Below, one piece after another: positions 208 through 62,440 of a stretch of DNA of 64,000 nucleotides. Positions within the stretch are counted from its first letter, which is position 1. Every line of letters begins with the position of its first letter. The notes below the pieces were generated by a model that was given only the letters and a program-made list of their open reading frames with translations, did no database searches and was not told the origin of the DNA. Source of the stretch: Tribonema minus (Eukaryota; Sar; Xanthophyceae; Tribonematales; Tribonemataceae); assembly GCA_017506865.1 (NCBI GenBank), contig JAFCMP010000525.1:310001-374000 (forward strand). Direction: 5' to 3'. A program made the position numbers and the translations under genes.

Positions 208-3200
208 TGAGCACATGCCTGAGGATACGTATAGCGCACTGCATACACACATACCTGACGATGGGGCTCCCCCAGTCCGGCAGGCGAGGCGGCGCCCCCC
301 CCCGCGCCGCGCCGCTGCCGCCGCCGCCGGACCTCTTGCTCCCCCCCGCCCCCCCCCGCGAGGGGCCGACCTTTGTCATGGGCGTAGCCAGCACTCCGCG
401 CAGCGCGCTCTCTGCGCGTGCGGGGTCCATGGTGAGCGTCGCCGCTGCGCGCTTCGTGGCGGAAGGCACGCGGTGCGCGAACATGTCCGTGGGGAGGAAG
501 ATCTGCACGGGGTACGGCTGGAGGTTCTCGGGGGTCTGCGGCGGCGGGGGAGGGGGGGGGGTAAGAAGAAGCAGTGTTAATTGGTGAGTGCGCCTTCAAG
601 TGAGTGTGTGTGTGTGGGGGGGGGGGGGGGGCACAAAAAGCAGTGTGCTGATTGGCGAGTGCATTCTTGAGTGAGTGAGTGACCTGCGAGCGGCCCTAGG
701 GGGAAGGAGGGGGGGGTGGAGTAAAAGGCAGCGCGGATTGATGAGTGCGTCCGCGAGTGAGTGAGTGACTCAAAAGCGGCGCTGCTGCTGCGCAGGGCGA
801 CCCTGCGGCGCTGCAGATAGGAGGCCACGGGGGATGCACAACATGATGCGCACACAAGTCTGTCGGTTCGGCGGAGCTGCAGCGGGCACAACCGCGGGAC
901 GCAGGGACGTCAGCAGCAGCAGCCGGAGCACCTGGCGAAAAAAAAGCACATACAAAGCTATTCTTGAGGGTTCTCCTTGTTGAGCAGCAGCGCTTGAAAC
1001 GTGGGGGGCGGGGGAGGGGGGGGGGGGGGCTGCGCTTAGCATTTTGTGGTGCGTACTTGCAGCGGTCAGAGCACGGGATGTGCTATGGTGGCATAGCTCA
1101 GTGCGTTGTGCTCCAAAGCGTGCACCAACATGCAGCCCTTTGCTGGAGCCTGAGCTTGATGCTACTGTCGCATGTGCCGGACAACACCATCAATGACAGC
1201 GAACACCGACGACAGGGCACGGGCACGGCTTCGTGTGCCACACACTAGCGTGCCGTGGTTCTGTTGTGTTGTAGCCAAGAGCTGCAAACACTACACTTAC
1301 GTGGCCTTGCATTTTGCGACGTGCCTTGCAGTGTGTTTGTCAGTGGGTTGCACACTGTGCTTGTTGCAAGCATTGCTGTCATAACGGCCGCTACCCTGAT
1401 GGAAGCACTTTTGCAGCAGCGCGCGCGCATTGCGGGTCGAGGGCCCCACCTTTGCGAGCGAGAGCAGGATGGGCGCGCGGCTTTTGCCACTACTTCATCA
1501 CATTGTCAGCATGCATGACGATAAACTTCCAGCCCGTCAAGGACAGCAGATAAAGGAGCTTCTGCAGCAGCGTGAGGGGGATAAGCATCACTGTGCCCCC
1601 AGCACAACTTCAAAGAACATCGTTAGCATGAGGGATGATAGATTTTCAGCCCCTCAAGCGAGGTACTCACATGAAAGCACTCTTTGCAGCAGCATGACAG
1701 GATGGGTATTGCTGTGCCCCCACCTTGACGCGCGAGAGCACGAAGGCGCACACGGCGTCCACCGCAACTACTGCGAAGCACGTAGCTGGCATGCATGATG
1801 TCAGCCCGTCGAGCGCGGTATACACAAGACTTCTGCGTCAGTGAAAGGGGGGTATGTCAGTATCCCTGTGCCCCCACCTTGACACGCGAGAGCAGGAAGG
1901 CGCGCGCGGCGTCCTGCAAAGCAGACCGTCAGCATGCATCATGACAGCCCGTCGAGAATATGTAGAACAAAGCACTTTTGCGCCAGCGCAAGGGGGGTAT
2001 GTAAGTATCACTGTGCCCCCACCTTGACGCGCGAGAGCAGGAAGGCGCGCGCGGCGTCCGCCACCACGTGCAGCTGGCCGGAGTCCGGCGCCATCGCGTC
2101 GCAGTAGCTGCAAGCGACGGCGGCGGTGGCAGCGCGGGCGAGCAGCGGCGGAGCAGCGAGGGAGGAGCGGTCAGCGCTGTCCGTCGTGACGCCGAGACGT
2201 CGAAGAGGACCCTGTGCTACTCACCGTGGTCTTCGTTCCAGCACGACACACTCAAATACAGACAACAAATAACAACAAACGCAAGTGACAACAGAAGTAC
2301 ATCGCACATCTGGCCGCCTGTGAGGCCTGCGCAGACGAGGTGGACTCCACGAGCACATAATGCTTCTGTGGGTTGATTGATGTCACGCTTGACTGGCCGC
2401 AAACCTCATTGGTCTACTACCTCAGCAATACCTACAGTAGTTACCACAAGGATGAAGTATGTGACAACTCGTACCTGGTCCTGATGGTGTTCATCATCTG
2501 CAACAGAAACGATGGGTTGTCTGCGTCGCCGCCGCCGCCGCCCTTGAGCGCAAACAGCACTCATTTGACCTACCACCTCAAGGTTCATACTTCTTGTTAC
2601 TTCACGATTGATGTACCTGATTACAAATCTACCTTGTCCTGATCGTATTGATCATCTGCAGCAGGAATGAAAGGTTGTCGGCGTCGCCGCCGCCGTCCTG
2701 CCTCTCCACAAGCCTCCCAGCGCAAACACAGCTCATTAGTCCACTACCTCGCTCTTACTCTGTACCTACTTCAGGGTTGAAGTGTGTGACCACTGTCCTA
2801 CCTGGTCCTGATGGTGTTGATCATCTGCAGCAGGAATGACAGGTTGTCGGCGTCGCCGCCGCAGTCCTGCCCCTCCATGAGGCACTGCAGCAGGAACGCC
2901 AGGCACTTCTGCATCTTGTGCGCGCCGGGGCCCTCCTCCGCCAGGTTGCCGAGCCCTGCAGAGGCGTGAAGGTCAGGCGCTCGCGCACGTGAGGGCAACG
3001 CACGTAACAGTCTCTGCCCGAAGAGGCGATATGATTGGTCTCATGTTGCCGAGACTGGATGGTCGACAAGGATACGCGCCAGGCTGCGTGCGGCGACCGA
3101 CTGGTTTGTACCCTTTGCAACCACAGCGACTTCGGCAAAGGTGAGGTCAACATCAAGTCTGCTGGGTGAAGCGGGCGACAGAAAGGCCCATTCTTCCGAA

Positions 3201-6200
3201 GACCCATGGCAGAAATGTGCGGTTAGAAAACAGTAAGGGATAAGCACCCCCAAGAAAATCAAGCAAACGACAACTGTACAAAGACAGCCACAAAAAAATA
3301 AGCAGTGTAGATTGAATCCATGCGTGCGCCTGTCCACGCAGTGATTACAAGCCCTCGTTGCACTGACAAGGCGAGAGCTACAGGCACCAGGACCGCGTAC
3401 CCCACCCGGATCACGCATATCACCACGCTCATGGGCAGGCACAGCGCAAATAAACAATCACTACTGCAAAGCACTCCAATACAAGGAAAGGAGCCTCCGT
3501 CCCTCCGTCGACCAATTCATGCGCCTGAGCTACAACGCAGCGCGCTACCATGTATGTGCATATATGAAAAATGACCATGAGTATGTACTTATTTTTGACA
3601 CTCCTAGAGTATGTGTGTACGCACAACGCTGCGTCGTCATCGAGCCTGAGCGCCGCGCTTACCGGGCAGGTGCGCCAGCATGTGCAGCGCGCACGGCAGC
3701 ACGTACTCCGGCAGCAGCACCGACAGGGCTTCACGCTCCTGAGCGCGGATGCGGCGGGGCAGGGGGAAGGGGGGTGAGGGGGGGGAGGGGGAAGGGGGTG
3801 AGCAATCTGTAGCGGCGGTGATCCAACGGTATCGTGCCATCAAAACCAGCAGCTGTGTCTTTCTGACATGAACACTTGCGCAGGTTCGCAATGCAGTTGG
3901 CATGCACGTAATTTGCGCCACGAAGCACGTATATCAACACGGCTTTGAGGTACAGCGCCCTGAGCAGGTGATGGCAGAATCCGGCGCAACGTCCGAGCGC
4001 TGATCTGACCTTGTCATGCACAGCGCCCCAGCGCTGGCATGCAATGTCAACGGCATGAGAAGTAACAACAGCACGAGAAATGATAAACATAAACGGCCAT
4101 GAGCCGCTCCCTGCATCCGCACACCCTGCTGAACCACCGGCATTGTACAGTTGAAGTTGACATGCTCACCACGGCTCAGCCAGCGTCCTCACCTCGGCAC
4201 TCTTGGCAGCAGCGCTCTGCGCGGCGTGGTGCGCGCGCATGTGCCGCATGGACACACCAGTTGTGTACTTCAAGTAGTTGAAGTTCACATGCCAGCAAGC
4301 AAATGCTCACCACGGCACAGCCAATGGTCACCACGGCTCAGCCAGCAACCTCACCTCCGCGCTCTTGGCAGCAGCGCTCTGCGCGGCGTGGTGCGAGCGC
4401 ATGTGCCGCAGCCACGCCGCCAGCGCTGCGCGTGCCTCGCGCCTTGCGGCCTCCGGCTCCGCGCCGACGAGGCACAGCATGGCGGCGTAGCGGTGCGTCG
4501 CCATGCGGTTGTTGACGGCGCGCGCGAGCTCCTGCGCAAAGCGCTCGCGCACCGATGCGTCCTGCGCGCGCGCGGCCAGATAATATATATACATATTTTT
4601 TCGCGTAAGAAATTGTTGTTTATATTTTACAATCGCTGAAATGTATTTCCAATAAAAAGGCGTGAAGTATTTATGATATGCTTGAATACATTTGTATTTG
4701 TGATATACACCAGATCATTTTAACTAGCAATAACGGAGAGCAAGATTTGAGCCTGAGACTATGTTGAGGCGTGCGCGTGCATTGACACGCGCGTGCTCGG
4801 CACGCTACTGGTTGAGCGTTGCTGCGCAAGATCATTACCGCTCCTGTGCGCGCAATATCACAGCTTTGCGTGCCGAACGTGCAATGCTGATGAGAGCGCC
4901 TGCTGACTGCAGTGTCCCCCCCAAACCCTAACCCTAACCCAAGGCCGATCCTGCATGAGTAGGCACTAAGAGAAGCCACACCTTCATTGAAGGGAGCGCC
5001 TGCCGCAGCGTGCTGCCACCGTGGCGGCACCGCCGTCTTCAGAAGTGCGCAATTGCAACTTGAACAGCTGCGGCAGTCGGTAACAACAATTTCGGAGCTT
5101 CACCGAGAAGCCCATGGCAGTTCACTCCTGCATCTATGTGAGAGCATATAGCTCACCACCGTGTCAGAGGTGTACAACCAAGGGGATCCAAACGGACACA
5201 AGACCCGCGGCTCGGGCGTGTTTCGCCACAAGTGATCATCGACAACCAGGAGGCAAACACATGAACAGCCACGTCAGCGCCCGACAGGACCCAACCTCAA
5301 CTTGAACTGAGCTGTGCGCTGTCTTGATGCATACATACGTACATACCTCATCGCACAGGGTATACGCCAGCGTGTGCCAGCGCTGCGCTGACAGCAGTGG
5401 CTGCAGGTGGCTCCTGCACATGAGCTCCAGGATGCACGTGGCGGCGGCCAATCGCACCTCCGCCTGCATCGGCAGCGAACACGTGCGAAACTCATTAGCA
5501 CAGGGACTAGCTGTACTCTTGAAGACAGGGCGGGTGATGCAGCGCAGCGGCGTGCCCCATTGCATACAACATCAGTGCTGTCCCCCAATGATCCCTCTGG
5601 CATGGCAAAACAAAAATTCGAAACGAAGTAAAAGTGTGGCACACTTCATGGGCATTGAGCACTGTCCACCTGCCATAATCCACAGTCATCAGCTCGGGCG
5701 GTGCGCTCTACCCATGCGCTCTACCCATTCAGCAGCGCAAAAGGGCAGCACTGTCAGCCTGATAACACGCCCGTGCATCAATGACACCCTGTTACTCATG
5801 CTGCTGAACCGGCTCCGCCCTGCAGCGCACCACTGCGCCCCCCCCACCATTTTACATGATTAAATCTGAACTACATACATACCTTGCTCTCATCGTCCAG
5901 CGTCGTCCAGCCGGGCGGCGCGCCCCCGTCGTCGAGCGCTGCCAGCAGCAGCCCCAGCAACTTGGCGGCGCGCTCCTTCACCGCCTTGGTGCTGAGCACT
6001 GCTGTGCTGCCGCCGCTGCCGCTGCTGCTGGCGTCGCTGGCGTCGCCGTCCGCGTCCGCGGCCGGCGCGCGCGGCAGCGGCAGCGGCAGCAGGCGCGCCG
6101 AGAGGAGGCGCAGGCCCGGCGCGATGAGCTGCGCGGCGGCGGCGGCGCGCCTGCGGGCGCCGCCGTCGTCGTCGATTGACAATGCGAAAATGGAATCAGC

Positions 6201-9200
6201 TGCCGGTGTAACTTTCATTTGTTGGCGTGTGTCTGCTCTTGAAGGGCATCGCGTTGTATGACAAGTTGCTTGCGTACGTGCGTGAGGGATGAAGCGCTGC
6301 TGACGGGATCATGGCCAGCTTGTGGTGCGCTGCTGAAGTCGCCGCTAGTTGCATTAATCCAGGGAGGGGGGGGGGGGGGGAAGGGGGCAGATGTCGTTCC
6401 CCCCCTGCCACAGCCGCCTGCACTGATGCTAGACTCGACACTTCTCTGTCTTCTCTCAAGAACCTAAACATGTCAGCAGTGGTAGTAACCACTGTCAGGC
6501 GCGGTCGTGCCGGTTTGCTTTTGACTGAGGTTACCACTTATGATAATTGCATTGCTGACACATTAGATTATTTCAAAAATTACACTCAGAATACCATTTT
6601 TCACATGCCATCAGCACATACCCCTTCAAACTGGCGGCTGTTACATGCTGTGAACGTGGCAGCAAGCTTGTCTCACTGGCGCCGCACTTGGCTCTCCAAT
6701 TGTCATGACACTGCACCTGCCAGGCGGTGCCTCACTGTGCCAAGAAATTCACTTTTGAACTTCCCTTGCAAGCAGCGGTCGCCTTTCCCTTTTTGCCGCT
6801 TATATTCCATGCAAGCACCAATCTGCAAATCGAAGGTGATGTTTTGATCGACAAAGAGCTGCAACGTCCATGTCTGTGATAAAGACAGAGCCTGCTTTTG
6901 CGCGCAATCACAACATATCCCCTCAGAAACAGCCACAGCCGCTTTCGCCAGCACGCCACATTGCCTTTGGCTAGGCCAGGCTTTACCCCCACCGCTTTGC
7001 CATCAGAAAAAGATGATACTGCCACACTCACAAACCACTACTGTATGTAAAGTGAATCAACACATACCCCTTGGAGGCAGCCGCCGCCGCCGCCGCTTTT
7101 GCCTTCTTGCCCCGGCCGCCTTTTGCCGGCGCAGGACTTGGCTCGTCCGCCGCCGCCTGCGCTGCCTTCTGCACAGCAGCATCAGCATCAGCAGCAGCAG
7201 CAGCAGCAGCGAAAGGCCACATGGCGCTCCGTCAGTGGCCAGTTGAAGTTGGTTGCAGCATCATTGCTCAGGTGGGCACCCTCCACGCGCAGTTGGCGCG
7301 CCGCGCTTGTCAAGGGGTGGCAAACAGCACATCTCAGCACTATCAGCGCACTTCTGGAGTGGACAACATCGACACAAATCAGCATTGATAGCACACTTCT
7401 GCATTTGTTATCTGCTGGCGCGTGCAGATGGCCCGCCATCTCCGCTGGCCCGGAGAGCGGGCACCCGACGAACACAGCAGTAGCTCAGCGATACGGTCTA
7501 CTTCAAGAAGTAGTAGCAGTAAACTGTAACAGTGGACTGCTCGCGCTGACGACGCTGCACCCCTCCGCGCTTATGTGGCGTGCGCGTAGCAACGTACCGG
7601 GCCTACAATGTGCTCCTCGACGAAGCACGCAACGGCGTCCACATGCGCCTGAAACGGAATGCGCGCGCGCTCACGACTACTGCCGCTCTGACGCGCATGC
7701 TAACGATGCAGCACCGCTCCGCGCATGTGGTGCGCGTAGCAAGGTACCGGACCCACAACGTGCTCTTCGACGAAGCGCGCGACGGCGTCCGCGTGCGGCG
7801 CGAACGCGCGCGCATGACAGCTACCGTTATAATGCGCACTTACGGCGCAGCACCGCTCCGTGCGCGTGTGGCGTGCGCGACTGTTGTTGTTATCTTAATT
7901 AATTTTTGAGTTGAACAACGTACCGGCCCCACGACGTGCTCCTCGACGAAGCGCGCGACGGCGTCCGCGTGCGGCGCAAACGCGCGCGCGTGGCGCAGCG
8001 CAAAGACCCTGAGCGCTGCCAGCGTGGGCCCGAGACGCTCGCCGTGCGGCGCCAGCAGGCGCGGCGAGGCCAGCTCTTTGAGCGTTGCCGCAATGAGGGG
8101 GTTGTCCTGTGTCGCAAAAGGGGGGAGAGAAGAAGGGGGGGGGGGGGGGGGGGGTGTGATCAACTCAAAATGATGGTTGGCGGTGTGTCATGGGGGCTGT
8201 GGCCTTGCAGTCGAATCCTGTAGAGGTATGTGATGACAGCACAAGGCATCGAGGTGTGTGGCGCGTTGCCGAAGTCTTCACACATGCGGAGGACGCACTT
8301 GAACAGCAAAAAGGTTGGCGAGCCACCAGCACCGAGCTACTCTGACAGCGTTGGCAAGCCTGACACCATCATCGATGCTCCTTGTTCCACTGCCGCTGAG
8401 GCGTGCCATCGGCGCGTGCACGCTTGCGCACCGGCGCATCAGGCTCACGCGCGTGCACGTTGTGTGATCAACTCAAAATGATGGTTGGCGGTGTGTCATG
8501 GGGGCTGTGGCCTTGCAGTCGAATCCTGTAGAGGTATGTGATGACAGCACAAGGCATCGAGGTGTGTGGCGCGTTGCCGAAGTCTTCACGCATGCGGAGG
8601 ACGCACTTGAACAGCAAAAAGGTTGGCGAGCCACCAGCACCGAGCTACTCTGACAGCGTTGGCAAGCCTGACACCATCATCGATGCTCCTGGTTCCACTG
8701 CCGCTGAGGCGTGCCATCGGCGCGTGCACGCTTGCGCACCGGCGCATCAGGCTCACGCGCGTGCACCACATTCAAGTGCAAGCTGCAGCCTCAGACGGCG
8801 GCAGCTGCGCAGCGCAACAGCATCGCGCCGAGCCCCGATCACCTACATCAGGCTCAGGGTTCGCGCACTACATGCAAGTGAAAGCGGCAGCCTCAGATGG
8901 TGGCAACTGCGCAGCACAGCAGCATCAACAAAGGCTCCATTCTGCTCACGCTGAGCCATGCTTACCTCCGGCAGAAGCGCGCCCATTGCGCGCACGGCGG
9001 CTTCCGCGTGCTCTGCGGCGCCCGTCGATGTGATGGCCACCTGCAGCTGGCGCTTGAAGGCTGCCGGCACCGCGTCGCCTGCGCCGCTGCCGCTGCCGCC
9101 GCCGTCGCGGCGCGGCATGTGCGACATGAGCTGCGCACGCGGCGGGCGATGGTACGTTCACCGTAACCATGAGAAAACTGCAAGTTCAATGCCTGCTTTC

Positions 9201-12200
9201 GCTGGTGTATGCTCTTCGAAGTATCACTGATGATGACATTGATGCTGGTGTCGAGGCATATGCTGGCGAGTGATATCAACGCCGCAGAGGGGATGCTGAC
9301 CATAATGATAATGTTATGATTGCTGATGACAATGATGGCGCCAACTTATCATCATGGTAATCATCCTGGCAGCGACGCACGCTGACGACGCGGTGTCAAC
9401 TTTAGATCGCAGAGGGTGAGCTCGCGCGCAAGCTGATGGATCACAAGGGCGAGGCATGCTGATGCCGCAAAAACAACTTCGCGATCGCAGAGCGCAAGTC
9501 GAGCGCATGCCAGCACATTCCAACCAGTACAGGAACAACAGCGTAGCGCGCACCTTGAGGTACATCCAAATCAGTACAGGAATAACAGCGTAACACACAC
9601 CTTCATGATTGCCGTCTGCACCTCTGGCGCGTCTGCCAGCTCGCCGGCCTCCTTGTACAGCGGAAGGAGCCCCCCCAGCTGCGCCCGCAGGTGCGCCGGG
9701 AACACCCCCGCCTGCATCGCCATAACCTCCAGTGCGGGCGTGTAGAGCTCTTCGTCGCGCTCCTCGAGACCGACGCGGCACACCTGCACCACCTGAGAGG
9801 CACACACAGGCGCGTTGCGTCAGCGACAGCTTCATCGACAAGGCAGCTGTTGGTTGTGTTGCGCAAGCGAGGCGCCATCGCTGGCTGGCACACAGAGTAT
9901 TGACCATTTTTAGGGCTGGGCGCGTACAGCTCTTCATCGCGCTCCTCGAGTCCGACGCGGCACACCTGGACCACCTGCAGAGTACATGATACAGTTGAGG
10001 TAAACTGGGTGCAGCGCTTCAGTGACAGGCCAAGTGTGTGAGGCGGGCGTTCATGGGTGTTTGTAGGTGACGCGCTGCACACAGAGTACTGCCAGATTTT
10101 TCAGCGCGGGGGTGCGTACAGCTCTTCGTCGCGCTCCTCAAGTGCAACGCGGCACACCTGCACCACCTGCAGAGTAAATGGTACAGTTGAGGTGAATGCA
10201 ACTGCAGTTACCGCCACAGGGGGACACAAAGCTGAGACTTGCCTCGTGCAGCATGCCCACGCCGAAGCTGAACAGCGCGCACCGCCGCGTGAGCGCCGTG
10301 AGGTACAGTAGTCGCCTCACGCCGCTAGCAGACCCCGACAAGCCAATGCTCGTAGGCACGTACGTAAAACATCCAAGTGCCGCAGGAGCATAGAGGGAGA
10401 AAAGTGCTGAGACTCACCTCCTGAAACATGCCCGCGCCGAAGCTGAACAGCGCGCACCGCCGCGTGAGCGCCATGAGGTAGTCGCCCAGCGCCGTCTTGC
10501 TGCCAACGCGTTTCACCAGGTCCTCGCGCGCAGCCGCCGGCGCCGCCGCTGTTGCCGCCGCCGCCTCGCCGTCCTCGCAGAGGGAACGCAGCAGCTGGAA
10601 GATCTGCGCGCATGTGGAAATTCATGCGACGTTGAGGACTGCCGCCTCGTCACCGCGAGTTTGCTGGAAGTTGGCAGTGTCAGCGGCATGGTGCGCTTTC
10701 ACGCGACGTACCAGGACTGGACGCTGTCAAGAGCATCGAAGATCTGCGCACGCGTGAGAGCACCATGCGACATTGAAGGTTGCTGCGTTTGCGCGCTGGC
10801 GTGCCGGGACTGGGCAGTGTCGTGAGCATTGCGTCGCACGCGTCAAGAGATGCAACAGGGGCGCACGAGAGGTCGTCGCCGTCGACTTTGGCGGGCCCTA
10901 AGCTTAGGGCCGAGACTGGCGGGCCAGACGGCGCGTTATCGGGTGGTGCGGTGGTTGAGCGCTGCGACGGCGCAGCCAGACCTACTGCCAGATACAAATT
11001 CTTCTAGCAGTTGCAAGCGGGATCAAAGGACAAGCATGATGCGCACAACCTCCTGCTCGCGCCGCCTGCGCTTTCCTGTGACTGCCGACCACTGCCGCTT
11101 CGCGCTCGCGGTGCCGACGACGCGGCGGCAGGCAGTCGACACGCATCCTACATGACCCCAACTTCAAGGTCACGAGTGCCGCAATGAGAAACCAAGAGAG
11201 GCAGGCCACGCATAACCCATACATAGGCCATACATGGGCCATACGTCGGCGATACATAGGCCAGACATCGGCCATACATGCATACATACATTGGCCATAC
11301 AACAGCCATACATCGGCCATACATAGGCGATACATCAGCCATATCAGTCATACATCAGCCATACATCCCCCATACATCAGCCATACATACATGCATACCT
11401 TCTTGTCGCGCTGCTCGTGCAGGCGGTGCAGCACGTCCGTCTGCCCGTCCGGCGTCGGCACGAGCGCCGCGATCGCGCGGAACGCCTCCTCAACCTGCTC
11501 CTCGCGCTCCGCCTTGGCCGCCGCGGCCGTTTTCTTGGCGGTGTCGCGCAGCACCAGATACCTGAGCACTGCCTCTGCAGGTCACAGAGAAGACGAGGAG
11601 TACATTTGCGGCAGCAGATCAGTTTGAAGGCCGCTATCGCCATGAGAGTGCTATACATTGTACACACGAGAGCGGCGGTTCAGTTTGAAGACCGCTATTG
11701 CTGTGAGCACTGTATTTTGAAAGTATGGTGCTCATGTAGGGTGATGCACTGCAGGAGCGCTGCGTGCGAAGTGAGCGGCAGATGTGTTTCTAGTGCTTCA
11801 ATCAGTCCGAACCCCGAACCGCAGCGTACTAATGACAGACCAGCCATCACCGCCATTCTTGAGTTCAGTCGGCATCGGGCAAGCACGGTCATCGATAGTA
11901 AACTTGGAGCGTTGATCTCAGCCCTGACCCTAACCCTAACCTAGCCTAACCCCAACCTTAACCATAACCTCAACCCTAGCATCGGCCGTGTCACTCACCA
12001 CGGCAGCGCCGCCGGTCCTCCAGCATCCGCTGCACGCCGGTGCGCGCGGCGGCGTCGAAGCCGCGCCACAGCGCGACGGCGCCCGCGGCGCGCACGGCGG
12101 GCGTCTCGCGCGTCGGCAGCAGTATGTCGTCGACGAGCTGCAACAGGCGCGACTGCAGCTCCGCGTCGCGCAGCGAGTACGACTTGACGACGGACGCCGG

Positions 12201-22292: not shown

Positions 22293-22892
22293 CCTCTCCC
22301 TGGCATATGTGAGCAATGCGAGTGCTCCGGGCCAACGGGGTTTGATTTTAGCGCCTTTTTTATTCGGGCACACACGACAAAAAAAAAGCTGTAAGGCAAG
22401 CAACCAAGAGGAGCAAGAGCAAGCCTACATGCCTAGGCCGCCCAGGTTCACTTGTTGAAATTTTGAAGCGCTGCGGTGTTGCGCACCTTGCGTGCATGCA
22501 TCTGAACAGACCACATTCTGCAAGGCCTAATGCCTACTGTTGCCCTGGGATTTTTACCATTTTTTGACATCAAGATGATCATTCCTTGCACTTGGGCAGG
22601 CTCAGAGCTGTCAGGGCACAGGTTCACAAGAAAATGTGCAGGTACGTGCAACCTGATAGTGAAATTCTGCTTTGCATTGAAACACACCCCCTCCTGAGAT
22701 GCTGTGCTTGCACTCAGAGCGCATGATGAGTGTTCATGCCCGATGCACTGGGACATTTCCCAATGGCTACACTTCCACGAAAGCGCGTGTTGCCCGGAGA
22801 CGCAGGGCGACGAACAGAGCCCACGACTTCTCACATCATCATATGTGTGCTGACAGCCCCTGCAAGCTCAACGCCATTCACAAAAAGTTGCC
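22293..22892. other. Intergenic spacer upstream of PDS5
   Basis: This stretch separates the PDS5 start codon from the retroelement debris to the right. It should hold the PDS5 promoter, but I can point to no defined element; open frames here are short and lack similarity. Confidence 0.5.
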
Positions 22893-22893
22893 C

Positions 22894-23035
22894 ATGTACT
22901 TTTTATTAATTCTCGCTCAGGGCGCGAAAAAGCCCAGATGATTCCAACTTGATGCTGCTGTACGGAATCTGCATGTCGTGTGACTTCTGAAAGTGTCTCA
23001 ACGGCAACCACTCAAACGCCGGCGCCGCCAATTGT
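22894..23035 (-). repeat. Retroelement tail repeat, copy A
   Basis: The minus strand encodes LRHFQKSHDMQIPYSSIKL, then SSGLFRALSEN and tandem TAA stops within a TTAATAAAAAG stretch. The same unit is found at 23325-23500 and 23997-24113. It looks like the C-terminal coding end plus start of the 3' untranslated region of a mobile element; copy A lies next to nothing else recognisable. Confidence 0.7.
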
Positions 23036-23324: not shown

Positions 23325-23500
23325 ATGTACTTTTTATTAATTCTCGCTCAGGGCGCGAAAAAGCCCATGTACTTTTTATTAATTCTCGCTCAGGGCGCGA
23401 AAAAGCCAGATGATGGCCTAACTTGATGCTGCTGTACGGAATCTGCATGTCGTGTGACTTCTGAAAGTGTCTCAACGACAACCAGTCAAACGCCGCCGCC
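23325..23500 (-). repeat. Retroelement tail repeat, copy B with a 42-base internal duplication
   Basis: It is the same unit as copy A, but the part beginning atgtactttttattaattct is present twice in tandem (23325-23366 and 23367-23408). It directly follows, in minus-strand sense, the endonuclease-like frame at 23486-23989, which links the unit to that element. Confidence 0.75.
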
Positions 23501-23989
23501 GCCAAATGGCATCTCGGGATCCTCCCCTACGTCCTCCTCCATGTGCCCCCCCCCCCTGGATTCTGCCATGTGTGTCATGACACGGCCAGAGTACGCCATG
23601 TGGAGCGCTGCCGACAGTGCCGAGCGTAAGCGCGCCAGGGCGATGCCCTTAAGAGCTTTAGGGCGCGCTCCTCCGGGCACTGACATCCTGCTGGCATACT
23701 CCGTCGCCACAGCCTCCAGCAGCTTCCGCCCCTGCTCCCCGATGCTGCCAAAAGACCCGATTGCCAAAGTGGCAAGTTTGTAGCAATTCTGGTCATAATG
23801 ACCAGAATAGTGGGATAATTTGGCGGCCTCTTGGTCGCGGCAGCAGCGCTCGGGGTCTGCTGCAGTCTTCGCCGCCCGCGACGCCACCTGTGCCTTGAAG
23901 CAGGTGACGTCCACCATGAGCGGTAGGTGACGTGTTGGGTCGTCGTAGCCGGTCACCGGGAAGGCGTCGGCAGGCAGCACGATGTCCAT
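23486..23989 (-). pseudogene. Truncated retroelement restriction-like endonuclease fragment
   Basis: The 167-codon frame shows LMVDVTCFKAQ, later EAAKLSHYSGHYDQN, then LATLAIGSFGSIGEQGRKLL. This D...E..K layout with a trailing GxxGxxxxxLL segment matches the C-terminal endonuclease end of the full retroelement at 31520-36382 (there GIVLDTSV, GEDAKVKHH, SYGRLGKQTSLF), though the two sequences are only distantly alike. No reverse transcriptase lies upstream; the frame begins just inside copy C of the tail repeat. It is a dead fragment or a solo domain of a different family from the intact element. Confidence 0.7.
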
Positions 23990-23996
23990 CAGCAGT

Positions 23997-24113
23997 ATGT
24001 ACTTTTTATTAATTCTCGCTCAGGGCGCGAAAAAGCCCAGATGATGGTCTAAATAACTTGATGCTGCTGTACGGAATCTGCATGTCGTGTGACTTCTGAA
24101 AGTGTCTCAACGA
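23997..24113 (-). repeat. Retroelement tail repeat, copy C
   Basis: The third copy of the unit at 22894-23035, again encoding SLRHFQKSHDMQIPYSSIKL on the minus strand and ending in TAA stops. Together with copy B it brackets the endonuclease-like fragment. Confidence 0.75.
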
Positions 24114-48548: not shown

Positions 48549-50661
<2,113 letters not shown>

Positions 50662-52144
50662 ATGTCTCATTGCGTTATTCCACCGCAAACCGCTGCTGCT
50701 GGACTAGCACTGCTGCTTCTGAGCCGTGGGCAAGCCATCCTTGTTGATAACTCGCTGCAATCCCCTCTTACTTCTGCAGAGGTGGTGAGACGCTTTCGCT
50801 TGGTGGCGGGAACCTTCCACGCTGGCAGGAAAGTCGGGCTGCCAATACACCTGGCGGAGGATGCCTCTGTGAGCAGGAGCCACGCGCAGTTCCGGATAGA
50901 TGACGGCGTTCCGCAACGACTGTTCATTACGGTGAGAGAGCAAACTCTAATTGTCTCAGGCACGCAGTGCTACAACATGGTTTCTGCAATTGGTCTGTTT
51001 TTCTGTCCAGTTGACACAATTTGGTGAAGAGCGTGAGGATTGCTGCTGCGCGGAGCTGATCTAGTCAGCTGCATCGATATGCATGCACGACATGAGCTGG
51101 CCAATTGCCATTCAAGGGCTGGTCATCAAATGTTCAAGTGCCAGCTCTGAGGTGCATTGCATGCACAGTTGTTTGCCATGGTGACCTATCGCCGACTCAA
51201 CAACAAGGCCTGATAGGCTCCAACATATGGCAACATTGGAGGTTCATAGTGATATGATGGTGACCAGTGCATGCGCTGCAACGACACGCGGTTGTACTGC
51301 GCTCACGTGCTCCTGTTCAGGGTGATTATGCCGCATGTACAGTATCGGCTGTCAGGGCGGCAACTCAAGGAGATGGAGGCTGCCATTTGAAACTGATTTA
51401 CGACATTGCAAGCCTGAGCGCAAGCTGATTTACGACATTGCAAGCCTGAGCGCAAGCCTGGGTTTGGCTAACCATCAATGTCAGATGTACCCTTAGGTAC
51501 ATGAGGTTCAGTTTCGTGTTAGCCCGTGAAAAGGTTAGGTGCGTGCCGGCCGCATTGCCACACCTGATGGCTCTGCTCGAAGCAGCTCTGTTCACGCCAA
51601 CCCAAAGTTGAAGTGCTGCATTTTGAACGACTTGGCACGCGATGTTAAGGACTTTGGTTTGTGCTCCCGCACATGAGTGCATGTGCATTGCCCAGTGTGC
51701 TTGGCGGTGGTCTGAGGGTGCCCACATCCTGCATGGCACGCGTGCACGGTGCAGTCCTCTTCGCGCCAATCCTATATCAAAGCGCTGAGCGCGTGAGGGT
51801 GCAGCCCGTACCTTCACGTCTCAGTCCACCAGACGGATGCGTTTCGAAGGACCTTGCACGCATTTCGTGAAGGACCTTGCTGCGTGCTTCCGCATATGAG
51901 TGCATCCGCATTTACCCGTGTGCTTGAAATATCTGAGAAGGCCTACATCTCGAATGGCGACGCGTGCACGGCGCAGGACCTGGCCTCGCGCTTCCATACG
52001 CTGGTCGACGGCGAGCGGCTGGAGGCCAATGCGGAGAGAGAGCTCAGGGAGGGGCAGCTGGTGATCATGGGCAACGGCGCCACGCAGCTGAGGGTGGCCA
52101 CGGAGCCGCTGATCGCGTGCTGCTCGCGACTGAAGCAGATGAAT
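50662..52144 (+). other. NBN: NBS1 FHA domain, exons 1-2
   Basis: The FHA domain binds phosphothreonine. The first exon carries RRFRLVAGTFHAGRKVG, then HLAEDASVSRSHAQFRIDD: the GRK and the S-R-S-H quartet are the phosphopeptide-contact residues known from FHA domains. The second supplies LREGQLVIMGNGATQLRV and TEPLIACCSRLKQMN, aligning with the end of the nibrin FHA and the linker to BRCT1. The N-terminal 45 or so residues before RRFRL are unlike other NBS1 proteins; translation might begin elsewhere and enter at the ttctgcag| acceptor-like site near 50780. Confidence 0.8.
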
Positions 52145-55100
52145 GTATGTAGTGTTTGCGCAGTCTGTATGAGAGAGCGGTGTGTTCAGTGCGCCGATGC
52201 CACATTGGCGCACCGTGCTGAGCGTTGTGCTTTGGGCCAGAATCTGTTGACAAGTAATGGTACTTGTGCACGCTGCAGAGTCGATGCATTTGTTGCCTTG
52301 GAACGCAGCATGATCGCCGGTGGCGGCAGCAGTTGCTTGCGCGGTTCATGGGATCTTATACAAGTACCCCTTTGGTGAATGCTGGCGTTGATGATGATGA
52401 GGTGAGGGAGCACTCTTTACTTGACCTATACACATGTGATGAATAGCGTCAGATTATGCGCAGGAACAGGCTGGCCGAACCGAGCGTTGTGTCGGACTGC
52501 CTGGCGCCGCTCCTTTCCGCGTACAGATTATGAGCCTACCTCGCGCTCATCGCATATTGTTGTATATTTACTGTAAAGTAATTTGAAAATTCTGTTGCTT
52601 TCGTGCGTCAACTTCAAGTTGAACTGTGGGTGCGCCTGCCACATCCTACAGTATCATGGCGTACAAATTGCAGAAGAAGTAGTTTTGAAGCCCCTCAGTT
52701 AGGTGCTAGGTGCACCATCAACACGCGCCAGTGACCCAGATTGCTGCAGGTGCATACTCTGACGAGTCCCTACACCAGAAGGCAGCATGTGTCAAGTAGA
52801 AGTTCAAACAGAAGGTATTCTCTGCTGCATGCCTGTATTAAAGGTTTCAATACGCATACCCTGCGTTGCAACGACCACGCGTATCCAAATGCTTCCCTGC
52901 ACACGACCGTGGTGCAGCCTGCGCAAATTTATTGCCACAGTACGGCGCCATCACCGAATGACGGACAAACGTGCTGGTGGCAACGGATATGGTGCATTGC
53001 AATGCAGAAAAAGACCGTGAAGGCGGACCTGGCAAAGCTGGGCGCGTCGACGCGCGACGCGTTTACGGAGGACTGCACGCACCTCATCACCACCGACGTC
53101 GCCGACTTCACCACCAAGGTCAGTACGTGATTTGTGTCTTGACCACCAATTTTTTTGAAAAAAACGTGTTTGTGTGTCACAGTGCAAGTGTGCTTCACAC
53201 ACCGCACGCACTCGTGGAGGGTCCTCACCGTTGATGTCTCACAGTGCATCACGTGCTCACACGCTTTACACACGTGTGGACTGCATCACCACTGGCTTGG
53301 CGGACTTCAACACCAAGGTCAGCGTGTCGCAGTGCATCACGCGCTGCGCATAGTTCAGGCACTGGTGGACGCTGGAGTCCACAGAACGGCTCGTCGCGCC
53401 GCCTGGTTGCCGTTCTAAGTGTTTATTTTCTGCACCACCAGCGCCTCCACGCCACGTATGAAACGCAGTTCCATCGACCAGGCCGACTGCTTGCCGATTT
53501 GCGTAGGTTGAATTGTACCAGTGTCTATGTATGCACCATGTACAGAACACACTTTGGAGGTGCGCTGCAGATTCCCGCCACGCGGGCTCTCATTTTTCTG
53601 TCATATGCTCATGCATGGCTGTGCGTGCCACGATCGCTTTCATGCAGTGTGCGATGGCTCGGGCAGTTGACCTTGTCGCGTCGTTCTCTTGCGCCGCATG
53701 ACGCGCGCAGATGGTGTGCGCGCTCGCAGCGGGAGCGGCAGTGGTCACAGCGGGCTGGATCCAGGTACGGAGCGCGCCTTGAACGGCACCGCCGTAGTGG
53801 AGCACCCTCTCTGTGAGCATCGATGTGTGCTGCTATGTGGTCACTGCCTGGTGACGCAATGGCAGTGCAATTGTGCCTCTGTGAGAACACGCCGTGACAG
53901 GGCAAAAAAACGCGGTTTGTGATCCTTCAAAACTGCTGAAGTTGAGATGATGACTACTTCCACAATGAGCAGTGCCTTGGTAGCTGTGTAAGCATGCTTG
54001 TCTGATTCGGCAAAGGCTTTGTTGACATTGGCGGCATTGCTCAGTGTGAATGGTGACATCAGCATCAACAGATCCTGCACTCTTTGGCATGTAAGGTTGT
54101 TTAGGGTTGGCCTCAAGCCTCGATTTCAGCAACAAGCATTGTAGCACTGCCACAACTCCTGCTCGTGCGTTCATGCAGCACACACATGCCAATACAGCTC
54201 ATGTGCGCGCGTCTGCATGAGCCATCAAATTCTGGTTGGACACGGCTGTGAGGGGGGCAAACTTAACTTGCGCGCATCAGGCTCGTGCGTTGCAACTCAA
54301 GCTATGGTGTACCGACACATTTTTTAGCATGAGATGGGTGCCAGGCTTCCATTACTGCGTGCCTTGAAAAGGTCTTCAGGATGGTGCGGCGCTGTCACTG
54401 GTGACCAGGAGCGCCTGCAGGTGTGTTCATGTGACACAAACGTATCAATACAGCTGATGTGCGCGCATCTGCATGAGCCATCACAAGCTTGTGAGGCCGT
54501 GAAGGGGCCAAACTTGACTTTATGCGCATCAGGGTTGTGCGTCACAACTACAACCATGGTGTACTGTCACTTCCTTTGGCAAAAGATGGATATACAAAAC
54601 CTCCATCTCCTGTGCCTTGACAAGGCCTCGAGTATACTGTAGCTCTGTCACAGGTGACCAGGAGTGCTTGTTGAACGACTCGTGGATGATTCCATACCAT
54701 TACTGCTGAAGTGTGGGTGCTCTGCCATTGTGCGCCAAGGGCGTGTCAACCTGCTCGTACCCGCACTGCCCTGAACTCACCTAGCACTGTTCTGCATAGC
54801 GCACTGCGCACGCTTTCGCGGAACGTACTTGAGCGCGCAGGCCATCAGAGCCAGTGCCGTGGCTGCAGCCGCGACTTCAACTTTAACCCTGTTAACTGAG
54901 GTCCAACAGCATGTGCGCCACACGCTCGGGAAAGCCCCGAGCACCTTGCCGCCGCCATGCAGCCATTGTGCGGCTCACTTGCGGTTGCCGCTTTGCCTAT
55001 GCATCCTGTTCTGTTGCAATGCGCGACGCCACAGGCGGCGCTCGCGCGCACCAATCTGGCGGATCCGCTGCCGCCGCCGCAGTCCTTCCTGCCAACGGCC

Positions 55101-58100
55101 ACCAAGCTGGGCAGGTGCAATTTGCTGCCCGATCCTGCGCGCAGGACGCTGCTGTCCAAGTACGTTGTCCTGCTGTGCGCGCCTGTGGCGGCAGATTTGG
55201 AGGTGAGCAGTAGTGCGAGAACCCCCATGTTGTGACAGCCATGAGCGAGAACCGCCGTTGTGAGAGCCATAAGCTTTCCAACCAATGGAGTTTTTTTGAG
55301 TGCACCGCGATGGTGCGGTGAAGTGCTTGGCGAGCATTTCGACTGCAAGTGTCACGGCTGGCATTCATGGTCACGTTGCGGCTCTGCGCTTGCGCCGATT
55401 GCATGTGCTGGGCGCTGTACGTTGCGGATCTTTGCAGCCTCCTGCAGGCACATTTGAAGTTGACGTGCACGCACGCTTGTTCAGAAGCGCGGCGATCGGC
55501 AGCGACGCAACCTCTTATAAATAGAGATGAGCTTAGGGTTAGGTTGAGGTTTAGAATTAGGTTAGAATTAGGGTTAGGGTCAGCCCTAACCCCAGCCTTA
55601 ACCCAAAATTTGATGAAATAGAAGAATGAATTCACATCAGGTGCCTCACCACATTAACATGCTGACCGTGTCCATGCTGTCCCGTCCTTGATGTTGTCCG
55701 TATCATGTGTGCAGCAACTGCTGCGCCTGACAGGGGCCGAAGTGCTGCGACTGCATGAGCTGGATGAGGCAGCGATCGCCAGGGAGCCATGGAAGGTACA
55801 TCACACATGGCTCATAGTCAAATCTGTGCTGCACTTGCTGGTGGTGTGCATTGCAGCGCGATGTGAGATGTATCTGCGTGTCGCTTCTTGCATCGCTAGC
55901 TCGTAACACAGCCTCCTCTGCTGCTCGAGCCGGAGCATGATTTCACGTCGCTACGCTGATTTGACTGCTGATAAGACACAGCCACACGATGCTTACACCG
56001 CACTGGCCTTGGCCCGAAACTGGTAAACCTGCGCTACCTATTCCCTCAGTACGCCAGTCATGCCGTCGATGTGCTTCACGTTTCGATGAGTGTGATCTTG
56101 ATGCATTGATTGCACAGCACTTCAGTAGGAAGTACATCAATCACTTCATTTGATCACCATATCAAAGTATTTCACATCAAAAGTGTGTGCGGCTATCATC
56201 AGAAGGGTGACGCGCGACCCCATTGCAGGCCTAAAAATCATACAGCAGAGTGATGGAGGGTCACGAAAGATCCATCGTTGTCATCTTTGTGCGCACCATG
56301 AATACGCGCATTAGGTCATGAGACACTGACCACCGAACTACTTTGGCTCATTGTCACTCATCATAGTGTGGCAAGGACCTTGATGGCCTCTGTGCACTTA
56401 GGTTATGAGGGGCATTGTTATTGGGCTCCACGTTCCTCTGCTTCAGAAATCAGAGTTGCAACGTCCTACTGTCGTCATATCCGCTAACCTTCATGCACAC
56501 GGCTGGTACGCAACGGTGTTAACGAGTGTAATTAGGGGACAAGAGATGCTCTGAGGCTGAACCCTGCAAGTACTTCGTCGAAGAATGGAAGCAGCAAACG
56601 TGCGTTTTCAGGTGTACTTCATTCATAAATTCAATAGTGAGGTTATGTGTGTGTTTGCATCTGACATTTACGCTGACAAACACATGTTTGTACCTACAAG
56701 CGCTTCAGAAGGACTGTGACAGTGATGGATAGTACTGCATTTTGCACTCACCATATCGAAGCTGTCCAATCATGCAGTAATGCTTTCTACTTCGAAGTAT
56801 ATCTAATGCATCCAGGCCACGGAGCACTGTGGATAACAGTACTGCTCGCTTTGTAACCAGAGCTCGGCTTTAGACTTGCATCAAAGCATCAAGATGCTGC
56901 ACAACTGTGACAACAGAGCACAATGTCAACGCTGCTGAGCGTGTGCTGTCCCATCCTGCTGCCTCTGCTGCTCAGGAGATGAAGCGCGTTCCGCTGGCCA
57001 TGCGCACCGTCGACACGGGTCATGCCGAACGTCAAATGCGCCTGCTGGCGCAGGTGCAGGAGCTGGGAGTGCTGCCCACGACCATGCCCAGGCTGGTGCG
57101 TCCCCACAGCGATGGTATACTTCAAGTTTGCTACACGTCAAACTTGTGGAAATCGCTGTTTGTTCACTGCTGGCTTGCTGATGATGCCTGCACTGGCGCA
57201 TGCTGTGTACATGTTTGTTTTGAACAAACTCGCCACATCTGACCGCAACTTCGCGCTGGTTGTGCACACTGTTACGCGTGACTCTTGGCCTTGAGATAGC
57301 AGCGAGTGCTGCTGAGAGAGCAGCTGTGCATGAGGGCTTGCTGTGCCTCATTGCTGGTAAGCAAGGCAAGGACGATAGTCACAACAGTGAATGTAGCAGT
57401 ACTAGGAAAACAAGGCTTGTCACTGGAGCGGAGGATACGCTGGGCGCACGGTGTCAGGGGTAAGGCACAGCGTGCTTGCCTGTGTCCACTGAACTCTCCA
57501 CGTGGTGGTCATTGCACGCCCTCATGCACCAATGTGAGCTTTGGGGAACCTCTGCTTCACCAACTTCTGAGTCACTTCGAGCATTGTGTCAGCGCATCGC
57601 TGCTGTGCGTGTACACAGCACAGATGTGCTCGTTTCTACCGCGCCGAAGGTCGCCGTCGTAGACGGAGCATCACCACCATTGCACTCCCTCAGAGTAACG
57701 GCGCCCAGCCCTCATGGCCTGCATCCCCCCCCCCCCCCCCCAGGTCTAAAGGGGCCTTCAGGCAGCGCAGAGGTGCGCGTTGTACCGCGCCAAATACCGC
57801 CGTCGCACATACAGCATCATCACCATTGCGCTCTCTCTAAATACGGCGCCCAGCCCTCATCGCTCGCATGTCTTTCTGCAGGTCCAAACTGTCGCCGTCA
57901 TGGCCAGCCCCGAGGACACCTGGGACGGGTCAGCCGACACGCAGGTCCCCCAGTCGTACCTGTCCGCCTCGCAGGCTCCGCACACGCAGAGGGCGCGCGC
58001 GCTGCCGCCCGCTCGACCGCCGACGGCTGCGGCAGGTGATGCTTGAATGGAATGGCATCTCGTTCTCCTGCGTCGTACACATGCGCTTTTGCTGCTTGCA

Positions 58101-61100: not shown

Positions 61101-62440
61101 CTGGCATCGTCGAGCAGCTTATCGCCGCAAAATTGCGCTGCAGCGAGCGCGTCCCATTGGATGACAATGTGGTTTCAGTGTGGGACTACCTCGTGGCCTG
61201 GTAGACTTCAGGGAATCCACGTGCATGTATATGGCCACTGAGACTAGGCAGACACAGATGGGGGTGGCTGCGAGAGATGCGAATGACCATGCAAGGCGCG
61301 CAGCGCAGCCGACCGCTTGGCACCTTTGCAGCAGTCACAACGCCACGGCACGAGAGCTTCACAGGTGTACATTGTTTTTTTTTGCCGTCACTGGCTGTCT
61401 ACCGCCTTATTGGAGCTGTGTTTTTTTTCGTATTAAAATGCGTCACCACCAAAGGTTGACTGCAACTCGCTGCTCGCTGCAGTCAGCTGCTGGGTCGAGA
61501 GTGCAGAGTCGCAATAGGAAACCTATGCATTGTTAAAAGGCAGCAGAATTGCATGCATGGCGCCACTTTGCGTGCTCGTGAAAAAAAAAAAGGATGTCGA
61601 CTTGACAGCAAGTCGGGCCACGCAGCTCAGAATTTATGTTTATGCAACAACACTGCAAAATATCGTGATGATCCACAGTTGGTCCGTCAGATCCAAAACA
61701 ACAAGATTCAAAGTAAAACCTCAAATGTAAGTGCACAACATCCAGTGTGGCCCATGCGCTCATTGTATCAGTGCACTACGGTGTTAGTGCCCTTCTTCCT
61801 GCATGCCCGCCGTCATCACGAGCGCTTTGGCAGATGGTATTACCAACTGACGACCCCGTGCAGTAAGCGGTCAGCCATCAGGCAGAACCGCAACTGTATC
61901 GTGTACTGTGACTGGGTGACTGGGTATGTAGGCATCGGGCTGCATGCAGCATTGTGGCGGCGAGATGCCATCAGCCTTGCGCCGCGTGAGCAACAGCGTC
62001 GCAGCTCTGCGCTCAACACTGGGAAGGGATTGTGCTCAAAGCTGCATCCTGACCTGGGATTCCTGATCTAGACTACACTAGCACTGGTATGGAAGTAGGT
62101 CGGTGTCCCCCTGACACTGACACAAGCAGCGTCATCACAAACCGGTGCAGGGGCATCAGAGAGTGGCGGCACTGCGCGCTGCCAGTGCACGCAACAGCAT
62201 GCCCCCACTGCAGGCGGCCAAACCCGCGCCGGAACACTGTGCGTCCGCCTCACCCCGCGCTACCGTTGCATTGGCGCCGCAGACGGCTGGATAGGCATTG
62301 GGCCGCGGCACCGCGGCAGCGGCGTGTCCTCGGCGAGCGGCGGCAGCGGCGGCGCGGTGTCGCAGCGCCCCGACGTCCGGCAGGAGCTGCTGGAGGAGAC
62401 GCGCTACAACGTGCAGGCGCAGGTGCAGCAGCTGATCGAG
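50662..62440 (+). CDS. NBN: NBS1/nibrin, FHA-BRCT-BRCT DNA-break sensor (3' end beyond window)
   Basis: NBS1 is the regulatory subunit of the MRE11-RAD50-NBS1 complex, which senses double-strand breaks in the nucleus and recruits the ATM kinase. Exons: 50662-50931, 51938-52144, 53008-53118, 53711-53764, 55035-55202, 55715-55795, 56976-57095, 57882-58035, 58353-58513, 59432-59691, 60609-60775, 62283-62440; all phases join, about 637 residues so far. The FHA domain shows GRK, SVSRSHAQF and a closing strand leading into TEPLIACCSRL. BRCT1 has AKLGASTRD, EDCTHLITTD, then VCALAAGAAVVTAGWI; BRCT2 runs through KYVVLLCAP, LLRLTGAEVLRL and RTVDTGHAER. The tail is disordered with basic patches and an SQ/TQ cluster. 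No MRE11-binding or ATM-binding C-terminal motif is reached, so further exons lie to the right. The start ATG and the acceptor of exon 2 (51938 or 51941) are my least certain choices. Confidence 0.88.
51640..51765 (+). repeat. Echo copy of the acceptor end of NBS1 exon 2
   Basis: Bases around 51655-51755 (GCTCCCGCACATGAGTGCAT, CAGTGTGCTTGG..., GCACGCGTGCACGGTGCAG) are a decayed copy of 51888-51977, including the start of exon 2. It shows NBS1 intron 1 is affected as PDS5 introns are. Confidence 0.6.
53225..53350 (+). repeat. Echo copies of the BRCT1 exon end
   Basis: The string cttggcggacttcaacacca then aggtcagcgtgtcgcagtgc at 53296-53336 copies the exon 3 donor edge at 53098-53125 (TCGCCGACTTCACCACCAAGG), in frame with GLADFNTK. 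A partial second copy lies near 53235-53260. Confidence 0.7.
54180..54680 (+). repeat. Two diverged ~245-base tandem copies in NBS1 intron 4
   Basis: 54185-54425 and 54428-54675 share a common order of words: AATACAGCTCATGTGCGCGC, GCATGAGCCATCA, GCGCATCAGG, ATGGTGTAC, CTGTCAC(T)GGTGACCAGGAG. They differ by many substitutions. No exon is included. Confidence 0.7.
55523..55612 (+). repeat. TTAGGG tract followed by its reverse complement
   Basis: The stretch starts gcttagggttaggttgaggt, continues with GGGTTAGGGTCAG, and turns into CCCTAACCCCAGCCTTAACCC. The two halves face each other and could pair. It lies in NBS1 intron 5. Confidence 0.75.
57640..57870 (+). repeat. Two copies near NBS1 exon 8, with a C-run
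   Basis: 57660-57720 (CATCACCACCATTGCACTCC, ACGGCGCCCAGCCCTCATGG) and 57805-57866 (CATCATCACCATTGCGCTCT, ACGGCGCCCAGCCCTCATCG) are near copies just before the exon 8 acceptor at 57882. Confidence 0.75.
59730..59850 (+). repeat. Echo copy of the donor end of NBS1 exon 10
   Basis: 59790-59835 (CCCCATGGCGTCGCTCACGC, CTTTTGCCTTGCTCACGCCAG) resembles 59640-59691 (GATGGCGAGCCTC, CCTGCGTCGCTCACGCCCTT). The copy has lost the donor. Confidence 0.65.
60609..60775 (+). other. NBN: NBS1 exon 11: dense SQ/TQ cluster
   Basis: The exon encodes nine SQ or TQ dipeptides within about 35 residues (ASQSQLG, SLTQATTTQ, ASQSQTQGE, ASTQGTQ), followed by a basic GSAKKKP. SQ/TQ is the phosphorylation site preferred by ATM and ATR kinases, and SQ/TQ cluster domains are typical of their substrates, including nibrin. 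The frame lacks its own ATG and is supported by phase agreement with exons 10 and 12. Confidence 0.8.
60770..61050 (+). repeat. Three tandem copies downstream of NBS1 exon 11
   Basis: Units containing GAATGCCACACGAGCGCAGC, TAGCCCAGATGGACTG and GTGTATGCACGTTGTG start at about 60797, 60890 and 60985. They begin at the donor region of exon 11. Confidence 0.7.
61553..62071 (+). other. Unassigned open frame in NBS1 intron 11
   Basis: The stretch is open for 172 codons and includes RFGRWYYQLTTPCSKRS and YCDWVTGYVGIGLHAALWRR. I do not recognise it, and no splice signals tie it to NBS1. It may be chance or a decayed insertion. Confidence 0.2.

Follow-up and report, generated by a model that had tools for sequence, protein, structure and literature searches.

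Transposon insertion aside, it is poorly understood how introns become longer, and a 64,000-nucleotide stretch of the genome of Tribonema minus (Xanthophyceae) puts the question in a concrete form. In this window, that is, the whole stretch analysed (positions 310001-374000 of contig JAFCMP010000525.1; GenBank assembly GCA_017506865.1, 158,181,000 bases in 554 contigs), introns of a PDS5 gene contain degenerate copies of the adjacent exon's edge together with its splice site, here termed echoes. Where do such copies come from, and which of them does the gene tolerate? Judged from the sequence, the echo pattern is real, present in multiple genes and well controlled on the donor side, and we think it likely that local tandem duplication across a splice junction, followed by in-register expansion, neutral decay and a splicing filter, explains it as a whole.

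Exon-edge echoes in PDS5 and other genes

Statistics were based on the window plus ~216 kb of other stretches, with gene models from a self-trained gene finder that converged on clear AG/GT donor (exon/intron) and GCAG acceptor consensuses. A preliminary description of the window had named PDS5, NBS1 and an EGF gene as carriers of echoes. PDS5, on the minus strand, was confirmed by Pfam (PF20168 at E 2.7e-104) and by a match to PDB 5hdt; its model of 24 exons, curated by hand, agrees with the exon numbering used there. The plus-strand gene at ~50.8-62.7 kb has FHA and BRCT domains (Pfam), a combination that would be compatible with NBS1, and its exons are numbered on the assumption that 50781 is exon 1. 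The EGF gene is unconfirmed, because the protein piece tested from the candidate matched no Pfam family.

Self-comparison of the window yielded 48 direct and no inverted near repeat pairs, plus one distant direct pair. Among another 14 samples, 10 kb each, 13 contained near direct pairs, a number of which lie within coding repeats, and five contained near inverted ones (eight pairs altogether). When 924 windows of 60 bases were sampled across 254 kb, a copy within 800 bp downstream (score at least 20) was found in direct orientation for 6.5% and in inverted orientation for 0.65% of them. Donor-edge probes (60 bases, score at least 20) matched their own intron in 12 of 76 cases, while at the same score the controls gave 0/380 in other introns, 0/76 for reverse complements and 0/33 for mid-exon probes.

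A curated-edge rule was then defined: the alignment lies no more than 4 nt from the junction and scores at least 26, with weak rows dropped and one chance match removed (edges were snapped to GT/AG; 4 of the 36 introns of the simulation gene model do not start or end exactly with these dinucleotides). By this rule 11 of 46 PDS5 edges have echoes, with one to five degenerate copies each, and so does 1 of 26 edges in the NBS1-like gene. Among DEAD-box loci (13 stretches hand-picked from 36 family matches, the repeats there not being known beforehand), echoes were found at 9 of 20 edges in the first six loci and 1 of 14 in seven further ones (10 of 34 in total); none of 497 foreign-intron trials for the second set passed at a score of at least 28. 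Another 11 gene-finder edges were chosen for having echoes and are excluded from these prevalence figures.

The individual exons listed in the preliminary description fared unevenly. In PDS5, nine of the ten named (6, 8, 10, 13, 14, 16, 20, 22 and 23) have echoes, no exon content being detected beside exon 9; exon 7, absent from that list, has one too, and exon 6 is echoed on both sides. The orientation described was seen throughout the PDS5 alignments, with donor copies downstream and acceptor copies upstream of the exon. Support for NBS1 is weak: exon 2 overlaps its array by 15 bp, the array at exon 8 has no exon content, and exons 3, 10 and 11 gave alignments of score 24-29, near chance for the probe length (82/660 in a foreign-target null at a score of at least 22). 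No echo was found in the EGF gene, whose region (28970-49656) has no BLAST repeat pair and, according to Tandem Repeats Finder, only short-unit arrays. The pattern extends beyond PDS5, as seen in the DEAD-box loci and in gene-finder genes.

Echoes cross the junction and have decayed

The copies are tied to the splice junction itself, as 46 of 49 curated-edge alignments scoring at least 30 start no more than 4 nt from it. The similarity continues into the adjacent intron above a 95% null in 34 of 52 copies. In these, mean identity is 0.87 for the exon part and 0.78 for the intron part, roughly as expected because the former compares a neutral copy with a constrained exon and the latter two neutral copies. 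One edge judged to be a chance match (PDS5 exon 10 donor; score 29, identity 0.63) was removed from the flank, frame, endpoint and first-copy analyses.

Mismatches between exon and echo concentrate at codon position 3 (167/966, 17.3%) relative to positions 1 (104/948, 11.0%) and 2 (94/963, 9.8%; p 7e-7; rows with unfitting frame labels were skipped). Of 94 alignment gaps, 88 are not a multiple of three (74, 14 and 6 gaps of length 1, 2 and 0 modulo 3, respectively), so that the copies, unlike those expected from tandem (mutually exclusive) exon duplication, do not preserve the reading frame. If the nearest echo site were used, the frame would shift at 18 of 21 edges and a stop would be met at 16, with at least one of these at all 21. 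The splice dinucleotide is GT in 23 of 34 donor copies and AG in 16 of 19 acceptor copies; at a mean identity of 0.86-0.88, this retention would be about equal to that expected from neutral decay. Because indels ignore the frame, mismatches fit a neutral copy, use of the echo site breaks the frame or meets a stop, and splice sites persist at a neutral rate, the echoes appear to be dead, under selection neither for retention nor for removal. They do not resemble genuine exons, in agreement with their preliminary description as intron sequence.

Most echoes reach only a limited depth into the exon

The mean reach of echoes into the exon is 70 bp, and 27 of 30 edges do not exceed 96 bp (copies of identity at least 0.78 were used for each edge where present; rows with score <28 and identity <0.72 were dropped beforehand, including an L029 donor row of depth 138). 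For comparison, single tandem duplications were simulated at random positions in PDS5 and NBS1, with unit sizes from the data, non-exon decay and the same detection. In the simulation, 46% of the detected edge duplications (depth at least 34 bp) are deeper than 96 bp (Kolmogorov-Smirnov p 2e-5; binomial p 3e-5). Simulated detection rises with depth, from 0.76 at 20-39 bp to at least 0.96 above 100 bp, so the shortage of deep echoes is not a detection effect. The exons had room for deeper echoes, as 29 of 30 are at least 150 bp long.

Three values exceed the limit: 185 bp (the exon 10 donor chance match), 134 bp (exon 16, a low-identity extension, ~75 bp by eye) and 109 bp, of which the first two were still counted against the limit in 27/30. 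In L029, the donor rows left out have depths of 138 (weak, low identity) and 124 (below the score limit). The depth pattern was first noticed on PDS5 and the gene-finder set; at the DEAD-box loci, fetched afterwards, 10 of 10 edges are at most 74 bp deep, with weak low-identity rows set aside. Genuine PDS5 exons measure at least 101 bp in 21 of 24 cases. We infer a splicing filter, by which an exon-sized duplicated piece carrying one real splice site would be treated as an exon and eliminated by selection, while a smaller piece would go unnoticed.

Arrays probably grow in register, with placement close to random

Arrays with <80% coding content have periods of 95-230 bp in 29 of 47 cases (median 168, interquartile range 149-313). 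In PDS5 and NBS1, where rows were grouped by hand, 12 arrays touch an exon, out of 18, or out of 19 if the pair 14837-15065 is taken as an array of its own; adding two intron-only pairs that were not among the rows (618-783 and 8745-8926) makes this 12 of 20 or 12 of 21. The simulation gave 42%, and the one-sided p for the edge excess is 0.03 (12/18), 0.05 (12/19) or 0.08 (12/20). Exon edges are thus at most marginally enriched over random placement, and the edge location needs little or no special cause. The preliminary expectation that copies are commoner at exon edges than elsewhere therefore came close to failing (12/18-21 versus 42% simulated). The intron-only duplication at 8154-8766, which, going by identity, is the most recent one of such length in the window, shows that the duplication process also works away from exons. 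A profile of 60-base windows for edge hotspots (repeat within 800 bp; 343/2428 at junctions, 908/13129 in introns, 223/2537 in exons, 169/972 in intergenic and 34/217 in mixed windows) was replaced by the curated genes and the simulation, because coding repeats and echoes mislabelled as exons contaminated its counts.

Copies of one edge end at nearly the same exon position. Within an edge, endpoints differ by a median of 1 bp (mean 9.7); the median between edges is 17 bp (p 7e-6, for the exon-side boundaries of copies with an identity of at least 0.78; the 27 within-edge pairs are not independent). Unit boundaries are therefore shared on the exon side, as in a tandem repeat array with minisatellite-like growth, and since a shared endpoint points to in-register amplification, one founding duplication was probably amplified in this way. 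No exon motif common to the duplication endpoints was seen in their contexts; the introns beside them often look TATA/TGTA-rich by eye.

The copies nearest the exon had been described as the most similar, and this stands as a trend: of 23 pairs of neighbouring copies, 17 show less similarity in the copy farther out (p 0.035); the pooled rank correlation (-0.25, p 0.066) is not significant. At 12 of 16 multi-copy edges, no other copy is as close to the first copy as the exon is, in line with a degree of ladder-like growth or with conversion from the exon; the two processes, growth beside the exon and conversion, may both play a part. Repeated arising of new copies at the junction, as first supposed, is not needed, given that copies of one edge have a common exon endpoint.

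Proposed mechanism and alternatives

According to the explanation we favour, introns would gain length through direct tandem duplication of local segments, many of them 95-230 bp long. Where the unit crosses a donor or an acceptor, the copy joined to the exon body would keep working and the other would become an unused echo embedded in the intron; the placement downstream of donors and upstream of acceptors is given by the geometry, and non-use is deduced from frame and stops. The copies would then behave as a short repeat array expanding in register, to which the shared exon endpoints attest, probably through unequal exchange or slippage. Echoes would decay neutrally while the real exon stays under selection, as indicated by the codon-position and indel pattern, and surviving units would mostly include only ~35-95 bp of exon, as indicated statistically. 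Duplications with an exon-sized piece (>~100 bp) would enter the mRNA as false exons and be eliminated by selection. Break repair as the trigger is hinted at only by the frequency of interstitial TTAGGG blocks in introns. We advance more tentatively, at somewhat less than an even chance, the wider proposal that intron growth proceeds genome-wide and continuously by roughly nucleosome-sized, junction-crossing tandem duplications, admitted only when their exon part is smaller than exon-recognition size. If this is true, splicing screens structural mutations by size, and each intron preserves a fading record of the edges of its own exons.

Several results weigh against the favoured explanation. 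In the first acceptor screen (60 bases, score at least 20), only 4 of 87 edge probes matched their own intron, and controls gave 1/435 in other introns, 2/87 for reverse complements and 2/34 for mid-exon probes. As the screen did not rise above the last two, acceptor support rests on the curated edges; the acceptor count was lowered because the gene finder had read some acceptor echoes as tiny exons. Prevalence is uneven, as the 1 of 14 edges in the second DEAD-box set illustrates. Past the junction, 18 of 52 copies lack intron similarity, some with exon parts 93-100% identical (L028, L020 and L029); such copies, which simple tandem duplication does not predict, may be later insertions or exon-to-echo conversion. 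One acceptor edge, in L012, would reach a depth of 144-182 bp, but its rows were set aside since the start of the exon seemed misplaced. Finally, edge arrays may slightly exceed random placement.

The main rival to the splicing filter is a breakpoint rule, by which the depth limit is mechanistic rather than selective: chromatin or lagging-strand synthesis would set the endpoints, so that units measure about one nucleosome repeat and extend about half a nucleosome into the exon. The unit periods leave room for it, since they cluster at 95-230 bp around a median of 168, and longer exons are not visibly echoed to a greater depth; however, the spread of periods is broad and the number small, and we regard such a rule as unlikely. 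Somewhat less probable still is the origin initially proposed, repeated independent budding of copies at the splice junction by a process tied to it. The greater similarity of nearer copies, the first copies being closer to the exon than to other copies (12/16) and the edge share of 12/18-21 against an expected 42% are all in its favour, but it has to contend with the common exon endpoint among copies of one edge and with the existence of intron-only and intergenic arrays.

A functional role of the echoes, as alternative or decoy splice sites or as selected tandem exons, could draw on the GT or AG kept in most copies and on exon parts that are in some cases nearly identical to the exon. We consider it very unlikely, in view of the frame-breaking indels, the frameshifts (18/21 edges) and stops (16/21) that use would bring, and a splice-site retention no higher than neutral. 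Least credible, and almost certainly wrong, is an origin from introner-like transposable elements: a separate dispersed element of ~104 bp is present in the genome, but every echo tested matches only its own exon. Under the favoured tandem-duplication explanation, echo arrays form a self-dating record, with the exon copy under selection and the echo neutral, and show, as a natural experiment, which duplicated splice sites can be tolerated by a genome. The depth limit of ~95 bp is of interest either way: it measures exon-recognition size in vivo if the splicing filter is true and informs how short tandem duplications form if the breakpoint rule is.

Catalogue of arrays and other features of the window

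The arrays are collected in Table 1.

Table 1. Exon-edge echoes and intron-only arrays, in window coordinates.
Feature	Position	Strand	Details
Donor-side echoes, PDS5 exon 23 (2023-2176), 3 exon-containing copies	1392..2067	-	shifts 145, 299, 574; exon identity 0.97, 0.87, 0.82
Donor-side echoes, PDS5 exon 22 (2802-2955), 2 copies	2398..2877	-	shifts 170, 333; 90-91 bp of exon
Donor-side echo, PDS5 exon 20 (4355-4561), 1 copy	4162..4410	-	93% identical over 87 bp
Donor-side echoes, PDS5 exon 16 (7924-8106), 2 copies	7545..7992	-	self-comparison, edge alignment
Intron-only tandem duplication	8154..8766	-	305 bp, 99% identical, 3 bases between copies
Acceptor-side echoes, PDS5 exon 14 (9601-9792), 2 copies	9719..10196	-	AG retained
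Donor-side echo, PDS5 exon 13 (10418-10603), 1 copy	10215..10480	-	donor position is GC
Acceptor-side echo, PDS5 exon 10 (12761-12958), 1 copy	12906..13184	-	
Intron-only array downstream of PDS5 exon 9	13636..13964	-	exon content not detected
Donor-side echo, PDS5 exon 8 (15276-15468), with intron repeat pair	14837..15330	-	
Donor-side echo, PDS5 exon 7 (16665-16815), with intron-only array	16109..16709	-	intron-only array at 16219-16545
Donor-side echoes, PDS5 exon 6 (18329-18480), 5 copies	17618..18409	-	shifts 119, 236, 371, 488, 643
Acceptor-side echoes, PDS5 exon 6, 2 copies	18428..18874	-	shifts 154, 311; 94-96% identical, 51 bp of exon
Array upstream of NBS1-like exon 2	51617..51991	+	15 bp exon overlap
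Intron-only tandem duplication, NBS1-like gene	54158..54725	+	
Intron array just upstream of NBS1-like exon 8 (57882-58035)	57616..57869	+	no exon content
Intron-only pairs	618-783, 8745-8926		seen only in self-comparison

Interstitial TTAGGG/CCCTAA blocks were observed in introns of the window at 4923-4942, 11923-11978 and 55533-55577 and in L028 at about 541-622; in L028 a TTAGGG repeat block stands right behind an echo donor. Such blocks occupy 14 loci in 268 kb, every one of them in a predicted intron; of nine permuted hexamers used for comparison, two were found once each and the other seven not at all. The perfect TTAGGG 24-mer (four units) occurs 7062 times genome-wide, overlaps included, with many occurrences in long arrays (for example at the start of C2). 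A minisatellite at 11204-11396, with an 11-base unit (CCATACATCGG), adjoins the donor of PDS5 exon 12, and its units resemble the donor sequence GTATG.

The dispersed element of ~104-108 bp lies at 22890-23034, 23325-23508 and 23997-24115, and the copy at 23997 has CAGTATGTACTTT on either side, which may be a target-site duplication. Of 1181 first-look candidates, the 40 that were scored comprise, besides the query copy, 39 near full-length matches (95-97%) and one partial match (87%). At L007:2482-4370, complete predicted exons, both edges included, seem to recur in tandem, possibly a real exon duplication. Short fragments of the RuBisCO large subunit, with one internal stop each, in L038 (G000:C334:714136-714324) and at G000:C112:516888-517037, are possibly plastid DNA moved to the nucleus. 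The assembly's 18S gene may be that of a photosynthetic stramenopile; its sole match in a plasmid collection is an unannotated record at 82%.

Comparison with known systems

Introners, in the part of the source available, likewise contribute new intron sequence throughout a genome (Gozashti et al. 2022, PMC9860276). They are described there as dispersed families inserted at many loci (PMC9860276), whereas an echo is local and belongs to a single exon. At the search sensitivity used, the edge of PDS5 exon 22 has three matches in 158 Mb, namely the exon itself and its two echoes, and the donor probes found nothing in 380 foreign introns; no single sequence family shared by introns of many unrelated genes was thus seen with these probes, and the preliminary distinction from introners, each intron echoing its own exon, is upheld.

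Direct repeats near splice sites have likewise been recorded at intron borders (Rogers and Bendich 2025, PMC11782384). In the accessible part of that source they are repeats of 4-30 bp obtained by comparing the two borders of an intron (PMC11782384), while the echoes are longer and copy a single exon edge, on the side where that edge lies.

The junction-crossing geometry has a precedent in a potato RdRp gene, for which the available part of the report describes an acceptor-side tandem duplication across the intron-exon boundary with most splice signals inherited, giving a new spliced intron and an extra exon, as well as an 83 bp intron-only duplication in the same gene (Ma et al. 2016, PMC4974935). 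Both systems involve boundary-crossing tandem duplication; the potato gene is a single case (PMC4974935), whereas the echoes occur in many genes, with repeated copies and no predicted new exon.

A literature search of titles and abstracts, with most subscription journals outside its coverage, brought up no recognised report of genome-wide junction-spanning echoes, which is weak evidence. The tandem genomic duplication (TGD) model of intron gain reportedly goes back to Rogers 1989, Hellsten 2011, and Gao and Lynch 2009. The echoes are like TGD, as portrayed in the accessible parts of two later papers, in being local tandem duplications within a gene that copy splice signals along with them (PMC3443670, PMC4974935). 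In the model as given there, an exonic AGGT segment is duplicated and a new intron results (PMC3443670, PMC4974935), whereas the echo unit crosses an existing junction, so that no new intron is predicted and an extra splice site lies within the intron. The local character is evident here from direct repeats at short shifts, with no near inverted ones in the window. A unit lying within an exon and making a new intron was not what we found, as the junction is crossed, 34 of 52 copies include flanking intron, and frame and stops oppose a new exon.

The echoes thus appear ordinary in kind, being tandem duplications, and their junction-spanning, array-forming variant is apparently undescribed in the literature searched. 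Minisatellites expand by in-register growth of an array from an initial duplication. Echo arrays resemble them in this in-register growth and differ in being anchored on one selected copy, the exon edge.

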